A stretch of DNA of 25,522 bases from IMG/VR virus record IMGVR_UViG_3300025873_000041, positions 1 through 25,522 of that record; one strand, 5' to 3'. A program made the translations under genes and the position numbers. The notes under the pieces were generated by a model, which saw only the letters and a list, made by a program, of their open reading frames with translations, had not been told where the DNA came from and ran no database searches. This DNA is from a virus. Positions 1,248 through 24,527 of the stretch are shown here, in pieces (within the stretch, counting starts at the first letter, position 1; each line of letters opens with the position of its first letter).

Positions 1248-1718
1248 TTATTTGACAATAGCCGAGAATCGAGGTGTTCTTCTCTTCTCATCAAAAACCA
1301 GTAGACAGGATGGGGCTGGAGCCGAACTTTGTGCTTCCTGGAATTTGATCCGTCCTTTTACCAATCGAATTTCGGCTGACCGCATCGCCCAATCATGCCA
1401 CCACTTTGTGTCGGTACGGGCAAAAGTAAGACATACGACAGTGCAGCCTTTGGTGCTTTCCCAATATGCTTTTTCGATCCATTTTCCAATTTCACGACCA
1501 TAAGGAGGATTGAGCCAAATCGATCCACCAGCGGAGAGCGAACACCAATCCATACTCAGCGCATTTTCGGTCAGATAGGGTACGCACTTATGGTTTTCAT
1601 GGGATGCGGCTGCGTCAAGTACAAAATCGAATTCCTTATTGATCTTGTTGAAGAACGCCCAAGGCGTCCCCCAATCCTGTTTTTTGCTGCTGAATAATTT
1701 ATCATCCGACCAACTCAT
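1248..1718 (-). CDS. Phage DNA N6-adenine methyltransferase (Dam-type, phage_Nmethyl family)
   Basis: Transfers a methyl group from S-adenosylmethionine to the N6 of adenine in DNA. The 156-residue protein matches the compact phage family in length and order: QDWGTP near residues 14-19, the SAM-binding region FVLDAAASHENHKC at 32-45, and the catalytic NPPYG at 70-74. It ends with the usual basic, proline-containing tail. The ATG at 1718 is 6 bases after the stop of the preceding HTH gene, so the two are co-transcribed. Its likely roles are protection against host restriction or timing of replication. GATC sites are conspicuously dense in this window, which would suit a GATC-specific enzyme, but the recognition site cannot be read from the protein. 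Confidence 0.88.
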   Translation of the reverse strand: MSWSDDKLFSSKKQDWGTPWAFFNKINKEFDFVLDAAASHENHKCVPYLTENALSMDWCSLSAGGSIWLNPPYGREIGKWIEKAYWESTKGCTVVCLTFARTDTKWWHDWAMRSAEIRLVKGRIKFQEAQSSAPAPSCLLVFDEKRRTPRFSAIVK

Positions 1719-1724
1719 AATTGT

Positions 1725-2273
1725 TCACCCATCTGTAATCCAGATCCGACCGCCATTGATTACTCGTGGTATTGCTGTCATCCAATCCGACCCGCGCCAG
1801 ATTGGTACAATCGCATTGGGAAAAAGCAATCTTGTACAATGCTGTCCCTCCATCCACTGCGCGATCAATGAGAGACAATTCTTCACCTTTTCATGTTTTG
1901 CGGGGTCATCAAATCGGTGTAGCTGTGCAGATCTGGAAAACCATTTTGTAGATCCACACCATTTGGTAAATGGATCCGCTGCCCATCTACGGTGAAGAGA
2001 ATAGAACATCGCAAGAATTCCCGCCTCTTCCAATGATGGTGATGGAGGTATTTTTGTGCAATATGCATTGACTTTTCGCCCTCCGCGTTTTGTTGTCTGC
2101 AACAGTCCCCGATTTTTCAGTCTGGATGATCCCCGTTTGATGGTCCCCGAATCCAGGCCGGTTACCTCTGCGATCTCTCTGTGGCCAATCTCTGTCTTTG
2201 ATCGAATCGCCAACCAGATCAGGATCTCGCTTTTTGTGCATTTGCTCAATGTCATTATCTCTTCGGGGTTCAT
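1725..2273 (-). CDS. HTH (winged-helix) DNA-binding protein, 182 aa
   Basis: The N-terminal third is a helix-turn-helix of the MarR/DprA-like winged type: KSEILIWLAIRSKTEIGHRE, then IAEVTGLDSGTIKRGSSRLK as the recognition helices, and a basic wing (TTKRGGRKVNAYCT, about residues 60-73). The rest has no family I recognise. The ATG overlaps the stop of the replication-initiator gene by 4 bases (ATGA, 2270-2273), indicating translational coupling. By position it may be a replication accessory protein or operon regulator; in lambda the equivalent slot after O holds P, but no helicase-loader motif is visible here. Confidence 0.72.
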   Translation of the reverse strand: MNPEEIMTLSKCTKSEILIWLAIRSKTEIGHREIAEVTGLDSGTIKRGSSRLKNRGLLQTTKRGGRKVNAYCTKIPPSPSLEEAGILAMFYSLHRRWAADPFTKWCGSTKWFSRSAQLHRFDDPAKHEKVKNCLSLIAQWMEGQHCTRLLFPNAIVPIWRGSDWMTAIPRVINGGRIWITDG

Positions 2274-3112
2274 AGCATCAACCGAAAAAGAATATGCTCT
2301 GTATTCTTGGATTTTATCAACCGACGAAGGTGGCCTGGATCCTCTTTCGGTGGTGGATGATCCTCCAACATCTGTTCAATGTCGGGGTTTTTTCGTAATG
2401 GTGTGAGCTTACAAATAGATGCGGCTTCAATAATTGGGACACATGTTTTCACCCACTCAAAAAGAACTGCGGGAATTCCTCTTGGACATTTGGGTACACC
2501 ATTCGTTTCTGTCTTCAAAGGAATCCAATCCTTTTCTACTTTTTTTAACTCTTTGGGTGCAGGTTTTGCAGGGTCTATAAATTCAGGAAGGGTAATTAAA
2601 TTAATTGTCTCTTCTTTTTCTCTTCCTTCTCTCTTATGGTGTCCGATTTGACAGGTTTTTGTGACAGATATGTCATGTTTACCTGTCAAATATGTCATGT
2701 TCGATTGTCCACTTTGGCATGTTTCTTCGTCCTCCAACCTGTCAGATATGTCATGTTTGTCCGATATGTCAGGTAAACCTGTCACATTTGTCATGTTTTC
2801 CTGTCCTGGTTGACAGGTTTTCCTGTCAGATATGTCATACCTCAAAGCGAGAATAAATCTTTCTTGACTCCTGCAACCTCCCTGGATTACAAATCCATTC
2901 TCTCTGAGCCAAGCCAATCCCCGATAGACTTGGCGATCTGAGATTTTCAGGTTTTCGGCTATTCGGATGATCCTAGGGAATACTGCCCCGGTTCCTCTTA
3001 AATCGTGAGAGACAAGTGAAATATAAACAGCCAGCGCAGATGCTGGTGGTTTTTTACTCATAAGCTGCCCCATTTCATTCATGGTAATCTGGGCAAATGC
3101 TGGTTTCGACAT
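2270..3112 (-). CDS. Replication initiator-like winged-helix protein (lambda O-like)
   Basis: The 280-residue protein starts with a winged helix-turn-helix at about residues 20-85: PPASALAVYISLVSHDLRG, IAENLKISDRQVYRGLAWLR and ENGFVIQGG. This is the layout of phage replisome organisers. The middle, residues about 91-150, is low complexity and repetitive at the protein level (three TCQxG units, several DISD and NMT units) because the DNA beneath it is a cluster of 17-bp iteron-like repeats. The C-terminal part is basic with proline segments. An origin inside the initiator gene is the arrangement of lambda O. It is the first gene of the left minus-strand operon, with the divergent control region 3113-3310 upstream. 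The start at ATG 3112 follows AAAGGATCAAA. The family assignment is by architecture, not by a diagnostic catalytic motif. Confidence 0.75.
   Translation of the reverse strand: MSKPAFAQITMNEMGQLMSKKPPASALAVYISLVSHDLRGTGAVFPRIIRIAENLKISDRQVYRGLAWLRENGFVIQGGCRSQERFILALRYDISDRKTCQPGQENMTNVTGLPDISDKHDISDRLEDEETCQSGQSNMTYLTGKHDISVTKTCQIGHHKREGREKEETINLITLPEFIDPAKPAPKELKKVEKDWIPLKTETNGVPKCPRGIPAVLFEWVKTCVPIIEAASICKLTPLRKNPDIEQMLEDHPPPKEDPGHLRRLIKSKNTEHILFRLML
2662..2838. repeat. Iteron-like repeat cluster inside the initiator gene (candidate origin)
   Basis: Six copies of a repeat with plus-strand consensus CCTGTCAGATATGTCAT occur at 2662-2676 (5' end lost), 2682-2698, 2738-2754, 2758-2771 (variant TGTCCGATATGTCA), 2778-2794 and 2822-2838. 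Extra TGACAGG/CCTGTC half sites lie between and beside them (about 2649 and 2811). The core is a near-dyad, TGACA-N4-TGTCA when the arms are perfect. Spacing is irregular, which argues against CRISPR. The placement inside a winged-helix initiator gene strongly resembles the lambda ori in gene O. Confidence 0.75.
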
Positions 3113-3136
3113 TTTGATCCTTTGGTGTATTCGTGA

Positions 3137-3167
3137 CCAAGGATCAAATGTGATACACTATCCTTGG
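3137..3167. promoter_or_regulatory. Inverted repeat, candidate operator before the initiator gene
   Basis: Perfect 8-bp arms CCAAGGAT (3137-3144) and ATCCTTGG (3160-3167) are separated by 15 bp. The site lies 25-55 bases upstream of the initiator start, where a minus-strand promoter would be expected. There is no T tract after either arm, so a protein-binding site is more likely than a terminator. No promoter consensus is clear enough to fix a start point. Confidence 0.5.
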
Positions 3168-3173
3168 ACATTC

Positions 3174-3217
3174 ACCCGTCGATTTCATGTTTAGCGGCAT
3201 TGATCGACGGGTTTTTG
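3174..3217 (+). terminator. Hairpin with T run, candidate terminator in the divergent region
   Basis: Perfect 10-bp arms ACCCGTCGAT (3174-3183) and ATCGACGGGT (3203-3212) enclose a 19-base loop and are followed on the plus strand by a short T run (3212-3216). A plus-strand terminator here is odd, because the nearest plus-strand gene starts after it, at 3311. It may end a short RNA made from within 3113-3173, or be a protein-binding dyad or attenuator in a minus-strand leader. Confidence 0.5.
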
Positions 3218-3310
3218 TTTGTGGTCATTCCCTGACCGTTGGCTCTTGTTCCGTTTGAAAGCGTTGATGTATATGATACAGTATAACACACTTCACACGG
3301 GGAATTCAAA

Positions 3311-3859
3311 ATGACTACAGATCCGATCTATTTTGTAGACACCGAAACGACGGGACTATCAGCGAAACGACACGAGATAACCGAGATATGTATCCTCCGC
3401 AGACAAGAAGGAGAAGTGGACCGGCAGTGGACTTGGAGGGTAAATCCAGATCGTCTATATATGGCATCACCACGCGCACTTGAAATTAACGGATTTGATA
3501 TGGAGATTTGGGCTGAGACAGGATTGAGCCAATCCGAGGCAGCGAAAGAATGTGCAGAGGTACTTCAATCACCAGGGACTATCGTTGCCCACAATGCACA
3601 GTTCGATCTCAAGTTCCTATATGAATTGATGCACCAGCAACAACAGGCTTTTTCATTCCCAGAAAATGTTGTATGCACCCGAACCCTGGCGCACCAGCTT
3701 TCGAGTGTCACCGGATGGGACAAATGTTCGATGGACGCAATCCGTGGATATATGGGTTGGTCAACCGAAGGAGCCCACACCGCTACGAAAGATGTGGATG
3801 ATTTGGCGAAGCTGTATGATCACCTGATTGGGTTGATTTCAGATCGGGTATCTGTTTGA
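3311..3859 (+). CDS. DnaQ-like 3'-5' exonuclease (DEDDh family)
   Basis: Likely a proofreading-type or nucleic-acid-trimming exonuclease. All five DEDDh residues are visible: D10 and E12 in DTETTG (Exo I), D99 in AHNAQFDLKF (Exo II), and H156 and D161 in HTATKD (Exo III). The length of 182 residues equals a stand-alone exonuclease domain with no polymerase attached. The ATG at 3311 follows GGGGAATTCAAA. It is the first plus-strand gene after the divergent region. A weak promoter can be drawn (TTGAAA at 3255-3260, TACAGT at 3277-3282, 16-bp spacer), which is not a copy of the repeated cassette. Its substrate, host RNA/DNA or phage DNA, cannot be told. Confidence 0.9.
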   Translation: MTTDPIYFVDTETTGLSAKRHEITEICILRRQEGEVDRQWTWRVNPDRLYMASPRALEINGFDMEIWAETGLSQSEAAKECAEVLQSPGTIVAHNAQFDLKFLYELMHQQQQAFSFPENVVCTRTLAHQLSSVTGWDKCSMDAIRGYMGWSTEGAHTATKDVDDLAKLYDHLIGLISDRVSV

Positions 3860-3865
3860 AAGATA

Positions 3866-3937
3866 ATGCAAAATAACTCTTCCAATGTTACTGTGTTATG
3901 GTATGATGATAGTAGACATTAACCACCGAGGCACAAA
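3866..3937 (+). promoter_or_regulatory. Promoter cassette copy 3 (drives 3938-4222)
   Basis: Plus-strand copy of the repeated promoter/leader module, starting 7 bases after the exonuclease stop. The -35 is TTCCAA (3880-3885), the -10 is TATGAT (3902-3907), with a 16-bp spacer and TACTGTGTTATG inside it. The left arm ACTCTTC is present (3876-3882), but the right arm is degraded. The leader ends CCACCGAGGCACAAA before the ATG at 3938. Confidence 0.8.
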
Positions 3938-4222
3938 ATGTTCAAGTTGATTTTAGGACCGAAGCAATACACCAACAATACCCTGCGGCACAGCGGGGAT
4001 TTCACACAAGAAATACTCGTAGATTTTGAAGACGGACAAGAATGCTCATTGGGATTTTTGTCAGCAATGCACGACATTATTTCAGGAGAGATCATCCAGT
4101 GGGTTCTTATCGACTCCAATGGTGATAGTCTTCCGGGTCTTCAAATGTGTTTCAAATCAAAGGAATCAGCAAGAGAGGCAGCGAATTCATTTCTTGTTCA
4201 GTACCTGAAAAGAACGGCATAG
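3938..4222 (+). CDS. Hypothetical protein, 94 aa
   Basis: No family is recognised. The protein is acidic in its first half (LVDFEDGQECSLGFLSAMHD), has a beta-like central segment (IIQWVLIDSNGD) and a C-terminal helix rich in alanine and serine (SKESAREAANSFLVQYL). It is small and soluble by appearance, with no signal peptide or membrane span. It has its own cassette promoter upstream and a strong terminator 25 bases past its stop, making it a single-gene unit like the 141-503 gene. That organisation suggests independent early expression, not a subunit of a larger complex. Confidence 0.75.
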   Translation: MFKLILGPKQYTNNTLRHSGDFTQEILVDFEDGQECSLGFLSAMHDIISGEIIQWVLIDSNGDSLPGLQMCFKSKESAREAANSFLVQYLKRTA

Positions 4223-4246
4223 AAGCAAACTCCAAACCAGACACGA

Positions 4247-4267
4247 GCCCCCTTCGGGGCTTTTTTT
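4247..4267 (+). terminator. Intrinsic terminator after 3938-4222
   Basis: Stem GCCCC (4247-4251) and GGGGC (4256-4260) with a CTTC loop, followed by seven T residues. It separates the 3938-4222 gene from the next promoter cassette. Confidence 0.9.
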
Positions 4268-4289
4268 GTCCGGGCTTATTGTAGAGATA

Positions 4290-4363
4290 ATGCAAAATAA
4301 AGCTTCCAAAGATACTGTGTTCATGTATAATGGAAGAGTAGAACAAACCAACCGAGGCACAAA
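4290..4363 (+). promoter_or_regulatory. Promoter cassette copy 4 (drives 4364-4567)
   Basis: The -35 is TTCCAA (4304-4309) and the -10 is TATAAT (4326-4331), with a 16-bp spacer and an extended -10 TG. The left arm is AAGCTTC (4300-4306), whose CTTC pairs with the perfect GAAGAGT right arm (4333-4339), again 26 bp apart. The leader ends ACCAACCGAGGCACAAA immediately before the ATG. Confidence 0.85.
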
Positions 4364-4567
4364 ATGTTAAACGAAATAATCACCCTTCCATTTTTTCCAT
4401 ACACCGGAAGGGTCGTAAAAGAGCGATTCCAAAATATGGCAGAGATTGAGATTATCGAAACCAACCTTGATCCAGTTGAAAAAACAAACCCTGAATGGGC
4501 GAAGTATATTTATCAAAATCAAGGAAAGAAAATGATATGTCTTCCCTTCGTGTTTACAAGAAAATAA
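4364..4567 (+). CDS. Hypothetical protein, 67 aa
   Basis: A very small protein of unknown function. It has a hydrophobic, aromatic N-terminus (IITLPFFPYTGR), a charged middle (AEIEIIETNLDPVEKTNPEW) and a basic end. There is no clear membrane span. The ATG lies behind the standard cassette ribosome binding site CCGAGG, 7 bases away, which is the main reason to accept it as a gene. Downstream lies a terminator-like hairpin without a T tract, so its transcript probably continues into the 4622-5131 gene. Confidence 0.72.
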   Translation: MLNEIITLPFFPYTGRVVKERFQNMAEIEIIETNLDPVEKTNPEWAKYIYQNQGKKMICLPFVFTRK

Positions 4568-5131: not shown

Positions 5132-5140
5132 AGGTACATA

Positions 5141-5215
5141 GTGCAAAATAAAGCTTCCAACTGTAGTGTGTTATGCTATAATTGAAGAGTAGAAAGAAAC
5201 CAACCGAGGCACAAA
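5141..5215 (+). promoter_or_regulatory. Promoter cassette copy 5 (drives 5216-5611)
   Basis: The -35 is TTCCAA (5155-5160), the -10 is TATAAT (5177-5182), with a 16-bp spacer and extended TG. The left arm AAGCTTC (5151-5157) and perfect right arm GAAGAGT (5184-5190) are 26 bp apart. The leader ends ACCAACCGAGGCACAAA before the ATG at 5216. Confidence 0.85.
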
Positions 5216-5611
5216 ATGAAAAAAGTCACAGTCGACACAGTAGGATTATCTCTCAAAGAGCGAGTGGCAGCAGACCGAAGAGAACGACGCGAAAACGCTG
5301 TTCACTTCACACTCTCAACAATGGTTATCAATGACCAAACAAGCCTGAAATGGGAACATGAATCCGATGATTGGATGCACTATTTAGTCAATGAGCGGGG
5401 GCAGCTTGTCGCGACCATACACAAAGCATCCTTCAATACAAACGGTCAAGCAACAAATGATCGAAGTGGACGCTCCCGTCGCGCTGATGGTCCACGATAC
5501 ACCGGTAGCCTGATTGTGAATGGTCAAGACGTAGAAATAGCACCTGAATTTACGCTCCATGGAATGAAAGAATCACTTATTGAAAAAGCGGAAGAGCTTT
5601 TTTGCCAATAA
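5216..5611 (+). CDS. Hypothetical protein, 131 aa
   Basis: No known family is recognised. The N-terminus is strongly charged and basic (SLKERVAADRRERRENAVHF), followed by a beta-rich region (WEHESDDWMHYLVNERGQLV, TGSLIVNGQDVEI). A polar Arg/Ser-rich loop lies in between (about residues 80-92). There is no membrane segment. It is a single-gene unit with cassette promoter copy 5 upstream and a strong terminator 7 bases after the stop. It is the last plus-strand gene before the convergent boundary with the late operon. Confidence 0.75.
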   Translation: MKKVTVDTVGLSLKERVAADRRERRENAVHFTLSTMVINDQTSLKWEHESDDWMHYLVNERGQLVATIHKASFNTNGQATNDRSGRSRRADGPRYTGSLIVNGQDVEIAPEFTLHGMKESLIEKAEELFCQ

Positions 5612-17931: not shown

Positions 17932-18360
17932 ATGAGCCAAAAAAAGACTGAATTCGTCATATTGGGACAACCAATCCCATGCCCCCGACCACGAGTGACG
18001 ATGCGGGGTACTTTCTACCCCAAAAAATACCGCCAGGCAAAAGAGATATATGCTGGTCAAATCAGCTTCCATTTCGCGCAGCATCGCATTTCTTCTTTTG
18101 TTGGTCCTGTTTCTCTACATGTTGAATTCGTCCATAAGCGACCCAAGGCACTCAAGGGAATAGATCGAATGTGGAAAACAACTCGCCCAGATGTTGATAA
18201 TTTGGTGAAGACCATCAAAGATGCACTTTCCGCTGGTGGAGCATGGAAAGACGATAGCCAATGTTGTATTTTGTATTGTATTGATAATTATGGTGAGCCA
18301 AACGAAGAACCACATACCCGAATAATTATGTCGGAAATTATCGGATCACCTTTGGGCTAA
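17932..18360 (+). CDS. rusA: RusA-family Holliday junction resolvase
   Basis: Resolves branched DNA, which phages need before packaging. The 142-residue protein has the RusA order: an N-terminal strand with GQPIPCPRPR (12-21), the catalytic core RPDVDNLVKTIKDAL (85-99) with acidic D87, D89 and D97, and D107-D108 in WKDD. It is on the plus strand although all neighbouring structural genes are on the minus strand. It fills the 450-bp gap between the MuF and protease genes and overlaps the MuF 3' end tail-to-tail by 23 bp. No clear ribosome binding site precedes the ATG at 17932 (GAGG is about 17 bases away). Only a weak promoter-like TAAAAT is visible, so how it is expressed is unclear. Confidence 0.88.
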   Translation: MSQKKTEFVILGQPIPCPRPRVTMRGTFYPKKYRQAKEIYAGQISFHFAQHRISSFVGPVSLHVEFVHKRPKALKGIDRMWKTTRPDVDNLVKTIKDALSAGGAWKDDSQCCILYCIDNYGEPNEEPHTRIIMSEIIGSPLG

Positions 18361-21873: not shown

Positions 21874-22315
21874 CCAGGTCCACCACCGGACCATCAATCA
21901 TTGGAGAGATCACACGATCTGCATCTTCAATCTCTTTCCGTAATTCTTCAACGCTCAAGATTTCGCTATCTGCTTCCACCGAGACCGACAGTGACATTTC
22001 ACGACGATAACCATGACGACGTTCAAGCATCCATGCTGCGGCTTGCCAGGATCCTTCCATAGCTGCATTCTGTATCAGTGCGAGCGACTTGATAGCAGAT
22101 TGAGACTCCGCTTGATCAACATCACGAACAAATTCAGCAAAGTCAGATTCCTGGTCTTGATCTCGTCTTCCTCTACTCATCCAGGATTGTAATGTTCTGA
22201 GTGGGATCCCTGCGTATGCGGATGCTATCTCTCTTGTACTTCCAACCCTTGTCGCCTCGATTACTCGCTTTTTTCTGTCTGCTGTGAATTTACTTGGTCG
22301 CCCCGGTTTTCCCAT
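21866..22315 (-). CDS. terS: Terminase small subunit
   Basis: Binds the packaging site and guides TerL. The 149-residue protein has the common opening GKPGRPSKFTADRKKRVIEA followed by an HTH (REIASAYAGIPLRTLQSWMS, about 28-47), then an acidic helical oligomerisation region (SDFAEFVRDVDQAESQSAIK) and AAAWMLERRHGYRRE, which is usual for this group. The ATG at 22315 is preferred over an in-frame GTG at 22324 because AGGTGAAGG lies at proper distance. It overlaps the 3' end of the TAGT glycosyltransferase gene by 26 bases and the start of TerL by 8, so modification and packaging genes are translationally linked. Confidence 0.88.
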   Translation of the reverse strand: MGKPGRPSKFTADRKKRVIEATRVGSTREIASAYAGIPLRTLQSWMSRGRRDQDQESDFAEFVRDVDQAESQSAIKSLALIQNAAMEGSWQAAAWMLERRHGYRREMSLSVSVEADSEILSVEELRKEIEDADRVISPMIDGPVVDLDD

Positions 22316-23225
22316 TGCCTTCACCTTTTCTGTGCAGTCCCATCCCGTAATTATTCGGTGTTTTCTCTACGTCATAATCCTCGCGACGGAGCAGTTTGTT
22401 TCTCTTGAATGGTCTATAGTCCACATGGTGATGGACACGACCGAATCTGAATACTACTTTTGAAACGTCAGGATGAGCATCAACCAGCATTTGTGATTTG
22501 GCTACAGTCCCGGTTTTTGAGTATTTTTCTCCTTTTGCCCTGTCTTCTGGCACATATATCTCTTCGGTATTTCCTCCTTTCATTATTTGGGTGGGCGTTT
22601 TTTGTTGTAAAAAGGCATTGAATAAAACAGTACACCAACCGGCTTTCAGCATATCCAGGGAAAGAATGGTGTCTTCGTTATACCGACCACGCCAACGAAA
22701 AGGCACATCATTTCTTATGAAATTACAGCTATATATTCGCCTGTTGGCAACGAACGGTGGGTATACATCTCGCGACGGGCAAAACATAAAATACTGTGGA
22801 CCTGCCATTGCGATATTTTTATACCGTTTACAAAAATCCTCCATGGCAAAAAAGATTGCACGGTCGCTCACTCGGATCCTTCTATTTTTGTGGAACCTGT
22901 AGAATGATCGAATGTTGTCATCCATAGTCCAGTGATAATCATGGCCGCTCGCAATCGAATGGTCCCAAATGAAGTTTCGGGCTGGTCCCGCACCAGTGCC
23001 CATATTGTCGGTGCCGAAGTCATCCAATAGATCATACTTTTCTTTGTATGTCAGATCCATGCAGAGCAGCTTTTTCTTGTCCACTCCGTTTTCCCGATAG
23101 TAGTCGTATTCCTGGGGCTCGATTACCAATAGATAATCGATACCGATAGAATCAAAATACCGCGCGGTTAGTCTTCTCTCTATTTCCGCTCGGCCTTTGC
23201 TCGGTATGTAAATCGGAGGAATCAA
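22290..23225 (-). CDS. TET-associated glycosyltransferase (TAGT)-like DNA-base glycosyltransferase
   Basis: The 311-residue protein matches phage TAGTs in order: an opening YIPSKGRA (6-13), LLVIEPQEYDYYRENG (32-47), GPARNFIWDH (80-89), the metal-binding WTMDDNI (99-105; D102, D103), RWRGRYNEDTILSLDMLKAG (177-196) with E184/D185 as possible catalytic residues, and the C-terminal HHHVDYRPFKRN. In the known systems such enzymes attach sugars to hydroxymethylated cytosines made by a phage TET-like oxygenase. No such oxygenase or DNA cytosine methyltransferase is seen in this window. The TTG start (23225) overlaps the ParB stop by four bases and has GGAGG 10 bases upstream. It overlaps TerS downstream, linking it to packaging. 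A sugar transfer to another target cannot be excluded. Confidence 0.85.
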   Translation of the reverse strand: MIPPIYIPSKGRAEIERRLTARYFDSIGIDYLLVIEPQEYDYYRENGVDKKKLLCMDLTYKEKYDLLDDFGTDNMGTGAGPARNFIWDHSIASGHDYHWTMDDNIRSFYRFHKNRRIRVSDRAIFFAMEDFCKRYKNIAMAGPQYFMFCPSRDVYPPFVANRRIYSCNFIRNDVPFRWRGRYNEDTILSLDMLKAGWCTVLFNAFLQQKTPTQIMKGGNTEEIYVPEDRAKGEKYSKTGTVAKSQMLVDAHPDVSKVVFRFGRVHHHVDYRPFKRNKLLRREDYDVEKTPNNYGMGLHRKGEGNGKTGATK

Positions 23226-23872
23226 TACCTATAATCCTCCGTCTTGTCCCAATCCTTTTTCGGATACCAAATACTCTTGGTGTTTTCATTCACTTTCTGG
23301 TCGAGTAGTTTTGCAAATTCACTTATTGCAGCAACGTCATCAAAATGAATAATTACGTGGGCGAACGACTTTTTGTCTTCATTCTCATATTCGGGCATTC
23401 CAACCCATTCCTCCCATGGATCGTTGACCCCATCTTCCTTTTCAAGAAACAAATTGGTCAATTCATCCTTACTGAATCCGATGCTTGAAAGATCAACGTC
23501 TTTCTCTTTCAGATCCGCCAATAACCCTGGCAAAATGTTGTTGTCCCAAGATGATAGCTCGGCAGTTTTGTTATCTGCGATTGCATACGCAGCGGCTTTG
23601 TCATCATCGAAGTCAGCGAAGACAACCCTTGCCTTTTTTCTCCCCAAAAGTCGGCAAGCCTTCCACCTTGTATGTCCCGCCATTATTCTATTACTGCTCA
23701 GTTGTACGATAATCGGAGCGACAAAACCGAACAACTTGATACTCGCTGCCAGTGTTTCTACAGCCTCATCATTATGGCGAGGGTTTTTCTCCCATGGGAA
23801 AATGTCCTCGATTGGCACCCAAGACATTTGGTCTTCAAGAGCGACAAAATTATGTTCTTGTTCCTGTTCCAT
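23222..23872 (-). CDS. ParB/Srx-like domain protein
   Basis: The 216-residue protein has the ParB N-terminal core: VPIEDIFPWEKNPRHNDEAV (19-38), ETLAASIKLFGFVAPIIV (39-56), the signature-like IMAGHTRWKACRLLG (63-77) and AIADNKTAELSSWD (97-110). This domain binds or hydrolyses nucleotides in ParB and related proteins; in phages it is often found with DNA methyltransferases and base-modification genes, where its role is unclear. The start at ATG 23872 is preferred because AAGGAG lies 10 bases before it and it follows the methyltransferase stop by 7 bases. The C-terminal half is acidic and unassigned. It is not a partition protein by context, as no ParA is present. Confidence 0.86.
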   Translation of the reverse strand: MEQEQEHNFVALEDQMSWVPIEDIFPWEKNPRHNDEAVETLAASIKLFGFVAPIIVQLSSNRIMAGHTRWKACRLLGRKKARVVFADFDDDKAAAYAIADNKTAELSSWDNNILPGLLADLKEKDVDLSSIGFSKDELTNLFLEKEDGVNDPWEEWVGMPEYENEDKKSFAHVIIHFDDVAAISEFAKLLDQKVNENTKSIWYPKKDWDKTEDYRY

Positions 23873-23879
23873 ATCAATA

Positions 23880-24527
23880 CTACTCCTTGAGCCAACTGCC
23901 TGTGAGATTCCAACCGCTCTCAAATGTTGGTCTAATTATGGGGCTGAACCCATTCATTTCAATTTTGGTCATTATTCCTTCTGCCCATCTTTTCCAGGGC
24001 TTTCCGACTATCGGATGGAATTCCAGAATAATAGCCCGTAACTGTGGTTGAATTATTTCGTACCCATATTCAGCACCCTCAACATCGATTTTGACTACCG
24101 TCGCGTCTTTTACTGCTTCCTCATATCGTATTGTTGGTACCTTGATCCGTTTGAATTTACCGCGTGATTTTGCAATGCTATTCGTAACGCCAATCCCTTT
24201 TGATATAAAGAATTCAACAAACGGGTCATCATTCCCTACAACAGCCAAATTGAATAATTGCATTTTCGGCTGGCGATTCATCGATAAAATCTTGAACGTA
24301 TGCGGTGTCGGTTCAAATGATAGGACTTGTTTTGCTCCGTTTTTAGCGGCCCAGATCGAATACTCCCCAACATAAGCACCTATATCTGCAACAACATCTG
24401 TATCAAATAGTTTGATGCTTTTGCATTCTCGCATTCCATTTGTAAAGGGTTTCGACGCCTTTTTGCTTCTCATTGCATAATGGCCGCCAGTAGTAGGGTT
24501 TTTGACCCATATCGGTGGATTATCCAC
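23880..24527 (-). CDS. FkbM-family SAM-dependent methyltransferase
   Basis: The 215-residue protein has the class I methyltransferase motif I VVADIGAYVGEYS (45-57), FEPTPHTFKILSMN (71-84) and VVKIDVEGAEYGYE (144-157), which together are diagnostic of FkbM-type O-methyltransferases. These normally methylate hydroxyl groups on sugars or polyketides. Next to a TAGT glycosyltransferase, a plausible role is methylating the sugar added to DNA; this is inference. The GTG at 24527 overlaps the previous gene by 8 bases and has GGTGA close upstream; ATG 24473 is a later alternative that would still keep motif I. It is translationally coupled to the ParB-like gene. Confidence 0.87.
   Translation of the reverse strand: MDNPPIWVKNPTTGGHYAMRSKKASKPFTNGMRECKSIKLFDTDVVADIGAYVGEYSIWAAKNGAKQVLSFEPTPHTFKILSMNRQPKMQLFNLAVVGNDDPFVEFFISKGIGVTNSIAKSRGKFKRIKVPTIRYEEAVKDATVVKIDVEGAEYGYEIIQPQLRAIILEFHPIVGKPWKRWAEGIMTKIEMNGFSPIIRPTFESGWNLTGSWLKE

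Follow-up and report, generated by a model that had tools for sequence, protein, structure and literature searches.

Why does a phage carry a DNA repeat in the middle of the gene of its putative replication initiator, and is this repeat kept as DNA or as protein? The question is raised by the virus record IMGVR_UViG_3300025873_000041, whose 25,522 bases were analysed as a whole (hereafter, the window). Its terminase, portal, head morphogenesis, tape measure and minor tail genes are those of a tailed phage, and its source is a small, undescribed one. A previous reading of the DNA, made from the sequence only, had proposed a probable origin of replication consisting of six copies of a 17-bp repeat in 2662-2838. 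The array is in fact larger: nine copies of an 18-bp imperfect palindrome lie in 2638-2839, mid-gene, about 270 bp into the initiator gene (Table 1).

The start-to-start spacing of the copies is 22, 22, 22, 34, 18, 22, 22 and 22 bp. The matrix of the sites and its reverse complement agree best at the exact centre (0.57, versus 0.39 or less with any other offset), which makes each copy an imperfect dyad. Since a spacing of 22 bp leaves a remainder of 1 on division by three, all three frames are used across the array, and a single DNA motif is read as DISD (GACATATCTGAC), CQPGQ (TGTCAACCAGGACAG) or MTNVTG (ATGACAAATGTGACAGG). The residue units recognized by the sequence-only reading (TCQxG, DISD, NMT) were correct and are these three frames. 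Its remark that the repeat is not a multiple of three stands for the spacing but not for the length of the unit.

Table 1 Features of the initiator gene, its iteron array and their surroundings (positions in the window; aa, residues of the initiator)
Feature	Position	Strand	Remarks
Putative replication initiator gene	2270..3112	-	280 aa; HTH_36, phrog_270 and phrog_678 profiles; 71% identical relative
N-terminal winged-helix-type domain of initiator	~aa 11-90		HTH_36 match
Repeat-encoded linker of initiator	~aa 91-160		AlphaFold confidence low over 76-194
C-terminal helical domain of initiator	~aa 213-280		AlphaFold confidence along chain
Array of nine 18-bp imperfect-palindrome iterons	2638..2839	-	Consensus CMTGWCAWATNKGACAGG; 14-bp core TGWCANNNNKGACA
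Iteron 9	2638..2655	-	CCTGTCAAATCGGACACC; adjoins AT-rich tract
Iteron 8	2660..2677	-	CATGACATATCTGTCACA
Iteron 7	2682..2699	-	CATGACATATTTGACAGG
Iteron 6, weakest	2704..2721	-	CATGCCAAAGTGGACAAT; TGCCA here, TGTCA in L001
Iteron 5	2738..2755	-	CATGACATATCTGACAGG
Iteron 4	2756..2773	-	CCTGACATATCGGACAAA
Iteron 3	2778..2795	-	CATGACAAATGTGACAGG
Iteron 2	2800..2817	-	CCTGTCAACCAGGACAGG
Iteron 1	2822..2839	-	TATGACATATCTGACAGG
Candidate unwinding element	2574..2637	-	Purine-rich tract, then AATTAATTTAATTA; nearest-neighbour stability
Downstream HTH-type gene	1725..2273	-	182 aa; overlaps initiator by 4 bp (ATGA); 79% identical in L001
Divergent intergenic region	3113..3310	.	Promoter-like -35/-10 with TG, - strand, 3309-3280; consensus matches only
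Inverted repeat in divergent intergenic region	around 3177-3214		CCCGTCGAT...ATCGACGGG

The evolution of the array was studied with the one array-bearing relative found, a 30-kb viral contig (L001/G001) that aligns with the window for the most part and encodes a protein 71% identical to the initiator; the conservation comparison is thus one of two genomes. Two other contigs are related to the window through their terminase and portal genes; both are fragments, in which the initiator was looked for and not found. A tblastn of the whole initiator against 50,697 annotated phage records had no match at E 0.01, and searches for it in the GTDB genomes found none either. Seven other viral contigs retrieved by a scan for the iteron DNA pattern contain an isolated match each, without an array, and were taken as chance. 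A weak N-terminal match in Vibrio phage 1.233.A corresponds to a short gene without repeats, and a Sporosarcina match to a short HTH gene. The terminase relatives in bacterial genomes are partial matches, 27-30% identical. Rfam and tRNA searches gave no match. Neither the window nor its relative is a closed contig, and the ends of each are inside dispersed repeats. In the window, these intergenic repeats (1-137 on the minus strand, 480-588, 3858-3945, 4232-4371 and 5138-5240) measure 80-135 bp and are 75-88% alike; most contain a promoter-like core (about CTTCCAAnnnTAnTGTGTTATGnTATAAT), and L001/G001 has related copies. These repeats resemble a phage promoter module present in several copies.

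The array is unlikely to be due to chance: with one mismatch at most, TGWCANNNNNGACA has 37 matches in the window versus 13.5 +/- 3.7 in dinucleotide shuffles, a number reached in 0 of 100 shuffles. With a matrix trained exclusively on L001, all nine array sites score higher than any place outside it in the 25.5 kb, the weakest of them by a narrow difference (11.46 versus 11.05 for the best outside place). The window and L001 proteins were also recoded in 2000 trials, keeping the protein and drawing synonymous codons from the phage's own codon usage. The recoded sequences contain 0.7 exact sites on average and four at the most, versus seven observed in the window and ten in L001, and the array was recreated in none of the 2000 trials in either phage.

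The comparison with L001 points in the same direction. All nine sites are present there with identical spacing, and the seven core positions that are strictly conserved show 0 differences in 63 bases, while the codon-position rates of the gene's N-terminal part predict 12.3 (log10 P about -6.7, a generous figure since the seven positions were chosen for being invariant). The remaining core positions differ in 10 of 63 bases, and the DNA separating the sites in 23 of 72. The synonymous codons provide a test free of that choice of positions: codons for the same residue are identical in 34 of 38 cases within the core versus 78 of 143 outside the array (Fisher p = 5e-5). As judged from these two genomes, the data favour an array selected as DNA rather than as protein, as the sequence-only reading had suspected: sites and spacing are kept and silent positions are frozen. 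The case that this reading had named as a refutation, a conserved linker over scrambled repeats, is the opposite of what L001 shows.

The protein encoded around the array probably belongs among the O-like/HTH_36 phage replication initiators, the profile match of its N-terminal DNA-binding domain being significant. The Pfam profile HTH_36 matches the window initiator with 28.3 bits and that of L001 with 26.9 bits (cut-off 25 bits), and phrog_270, annotated as "replication initiation protein", does so at 1.1e-6 and 1.5e-5, respectively. Weaker matches to the N-terminus come from three "replication initiation O-like" PHROG profiles (678, 391 and 345; phrog_678 at 2e-4), which also match lambda O and the HTH_36 initiator of Pseudomonas phage PP9W2. 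The winged-helix initiator that had been read from the translation is supported by these profiles. Nevertheless, Phage_rep_O (PF04492), which scores 123 bits on lambda O itself, has no match in the window or L001 proteins, and a direct comparison of the initiator with lambda O detected no similarity. With two sequences as input, AlphaFold gave a model of poor quality as a whole; the helical regions towards the N- and C-termini are the better ones, and the very low confidence of the repeat-encoded part is consistent with a disordered linker. A fold search with this low-confidence model gave no fold match.

Next to the array lies the least stable DNA of the gene. Nearest-neighbour stability is lowest over the 50 bp of 2574-2624, directly past the last iteron, and just one other place in the window is less stable. 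The L001 gene has its least stable tract in the same place, and in both phages the least stable 40 bp start 10-24 bp past the last iteron core. In lambda O, the corresponding tract starts 3 bases past the fourth and last iteron. Each of the three tracts contains AT-rich DNA as well as a run rich in purines, and all lie on the same side of the iterons when viewed in the direction of the gene. The AT-rich tract that adjoins the repeats in lambda-type origins is therefore present here, as a candidate for melting.

The array is very probably the core of a lambda-type replication origin located inside the gene of its own initiator and bound by the product of that gene. The way in which it would work is inferred from lambda (PMC7466680; PMC8508860). 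Initiator dimers would bind the nine 18-bp dyads via the N-terminal HTH domain, and the bound dimers, stacked at about two helical turns (22 bp), would build an O-some-like nucleoprotein complex. This complex would strain or melt the AT-rich tract just downstream of the array, where the host replicative helicase would be loaded through the C-terminal domain of the initiator, the product of the overlapping downstream gene or a host loader. The product of 1725-2273, which has weak HTH profile matches only, is a possible partner of the initiator; it has no match to a loader, and no helicase loader or P-like gene was recognized among the proteins scanned, which come from incomplete contigs. A bolder and rather doubtful proposal is that the whole module is unlike O-P, an HTH_36 initiator with an unusually long nine-iteron in-gene origin for which the 1725-2273 product or the C-terminal domain of the initiator would act as a new helicase recruiter.

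The GC skew changes sign near the array, and in G001 its minimum is at 2702, beside the G001 array. In both cases, the orientation of the genes changes at the same place, so the skew is not decisive for the origin. Just downstream of the replication genes is a Dam-type adenine methylase gene (1248-1718, minus strand). It seems to be absent from L001, since the blastn alignment breaks off at 1719 and the next aligned stretch is 622-996. A RusA-like resolvase gene (17932-18360, plus strand) lies on the opposite strand inside a long block of minus-strand structural genes. Further on, the product of 22290-23225 (minus strand) matches a beta-glucosyl-HMC-alpha-glucosyltransferase profile and its gene adjoins that of a ParB-like protein (23222-23923, minus strand); the L001 protein seems to be a fusion of the ParB-like part with a DNA methyltransferase. 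A DNA modification module is possible.

Several other scenarios may be considered for the array. A protein-level expansion of the linker by slippage or duplication, devoid of any function in the DNA, would agree with the low complexity of this linker and its very low model confidence, but the single motif that yields three unrelated peptides according to frame, the silent positions shared with L001 and the failure of recoding to restore the array already contradict it, and hardly any likelihood is left to it. Alternatively, the repeats could be a cluster of operators controlling the transcription of the downstream HTH protein, a repressor or the initiator. Multiple dyads would fit a regulator, and a second HTH gene overlaps that of the initiator. 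Moreover, plasmid iteron arrays often autoregulate as well. Yet, the array is about 270 bp inside the gene and no array site lies near the divergent promoters, the intergenic region (3113-3310) being free of iterons; the nine sites and the adjoining unstable tract, found in both phages, suit an origin better. A purely regulatory role thus seems improbable.

A partition (parS-like) or packaging site for another phage protein would find a candidate ligand in the product of 23222-23923, which has a ParB-N domain. However, this ParB-like gene adjoins the terminase genes, its L001 counterpart (L001 8754-10421) is longer (by reading, methyltransferase-like sequence follows its ParB-like part), and no ParA was seen. 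Moreover, the array lies inside an initiator-like gene, at least about 5 kb from the ParB-like gene across an unclosed gap. Such a site is very improbable. With the array read as an origin, an uncultivated phage lineage gains a likely origin and initiator, and the layout of lambda is seen again around an HTH_36 initiator whose sequence has no detectable relation to that of lambda O. A simple rule for searches is also suggested: look in initiator genes for one DNA dyad that occurs in all three frames and has the gene's least stable stretch after it.

Iteron plasmid origins consist of tandem initiator sites at a spacing of about two turns, beside an AT-rich unwinding element, and the iterons are usually outside the rep coding sequence. 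The window shares with them the tandem sites, their approximate spacing and the adjoining AT-rich tract, but its iterons are inside the initiator gene. In this respect it resembles the origin in gene O of lambda (NC_001416), which has four in-gene iterons (PMC7466680), and the similarity that the sequence-only reading had seen in this arrangement holds for the layout. The lambda iterons are also mid-gene, 18 bp long and imperfectly palindromic, with a dyad symmetry whose best offset is one base from the centre; they are spaced by 20-24 bp, not all multiples of three, and use mixed reading frames; an AT-rich, purine-skewed tract follows immediately 3' in the direction of the gene, and the next gene overlaps by ATGA. 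The differences concern the components: four iterons of unrelated sequence versus nine here, Phage_rep_O versus HTH_36, and a next gene that encodes the helicase loader P in lambda and an HTH protein in the window.

The Stx phages P27 and 933W, with six in-gene iterons (PMC7466680), are similar in having more than four of them together with an AT-rich tract, but have six rather than nine, with lambda-type sequence and O protein. Repeats have also been reported within the O-like gene gp56 of Pseudomonas phage MD8 (PMC8508860). In Pseudomonas phage PP9W2, the gene of primosomal protein I (OM141125.2) contains five GGCAN5TGCC dyads (L024:2046-2137) in all three frames, directly followed by its least stable tract, and these dyads are likely an in-gene origin. 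PP9W2 is like the window in its HTH_36 N-terminus and in the order of dyads and unstable tract; unlike the window, it encodes its own DnaB-like helicase next door, and the repeats of PP9W2 and MD8 differ from those described here in sequence and number. The layout of an in-gene iteron origin is thus already known and the window adds another example, set apart from the known cases by its nine iterons, by HTH_36 in the place of Phage_rep_O and by the lack of a recognizable P or loader among the proteins scanned.
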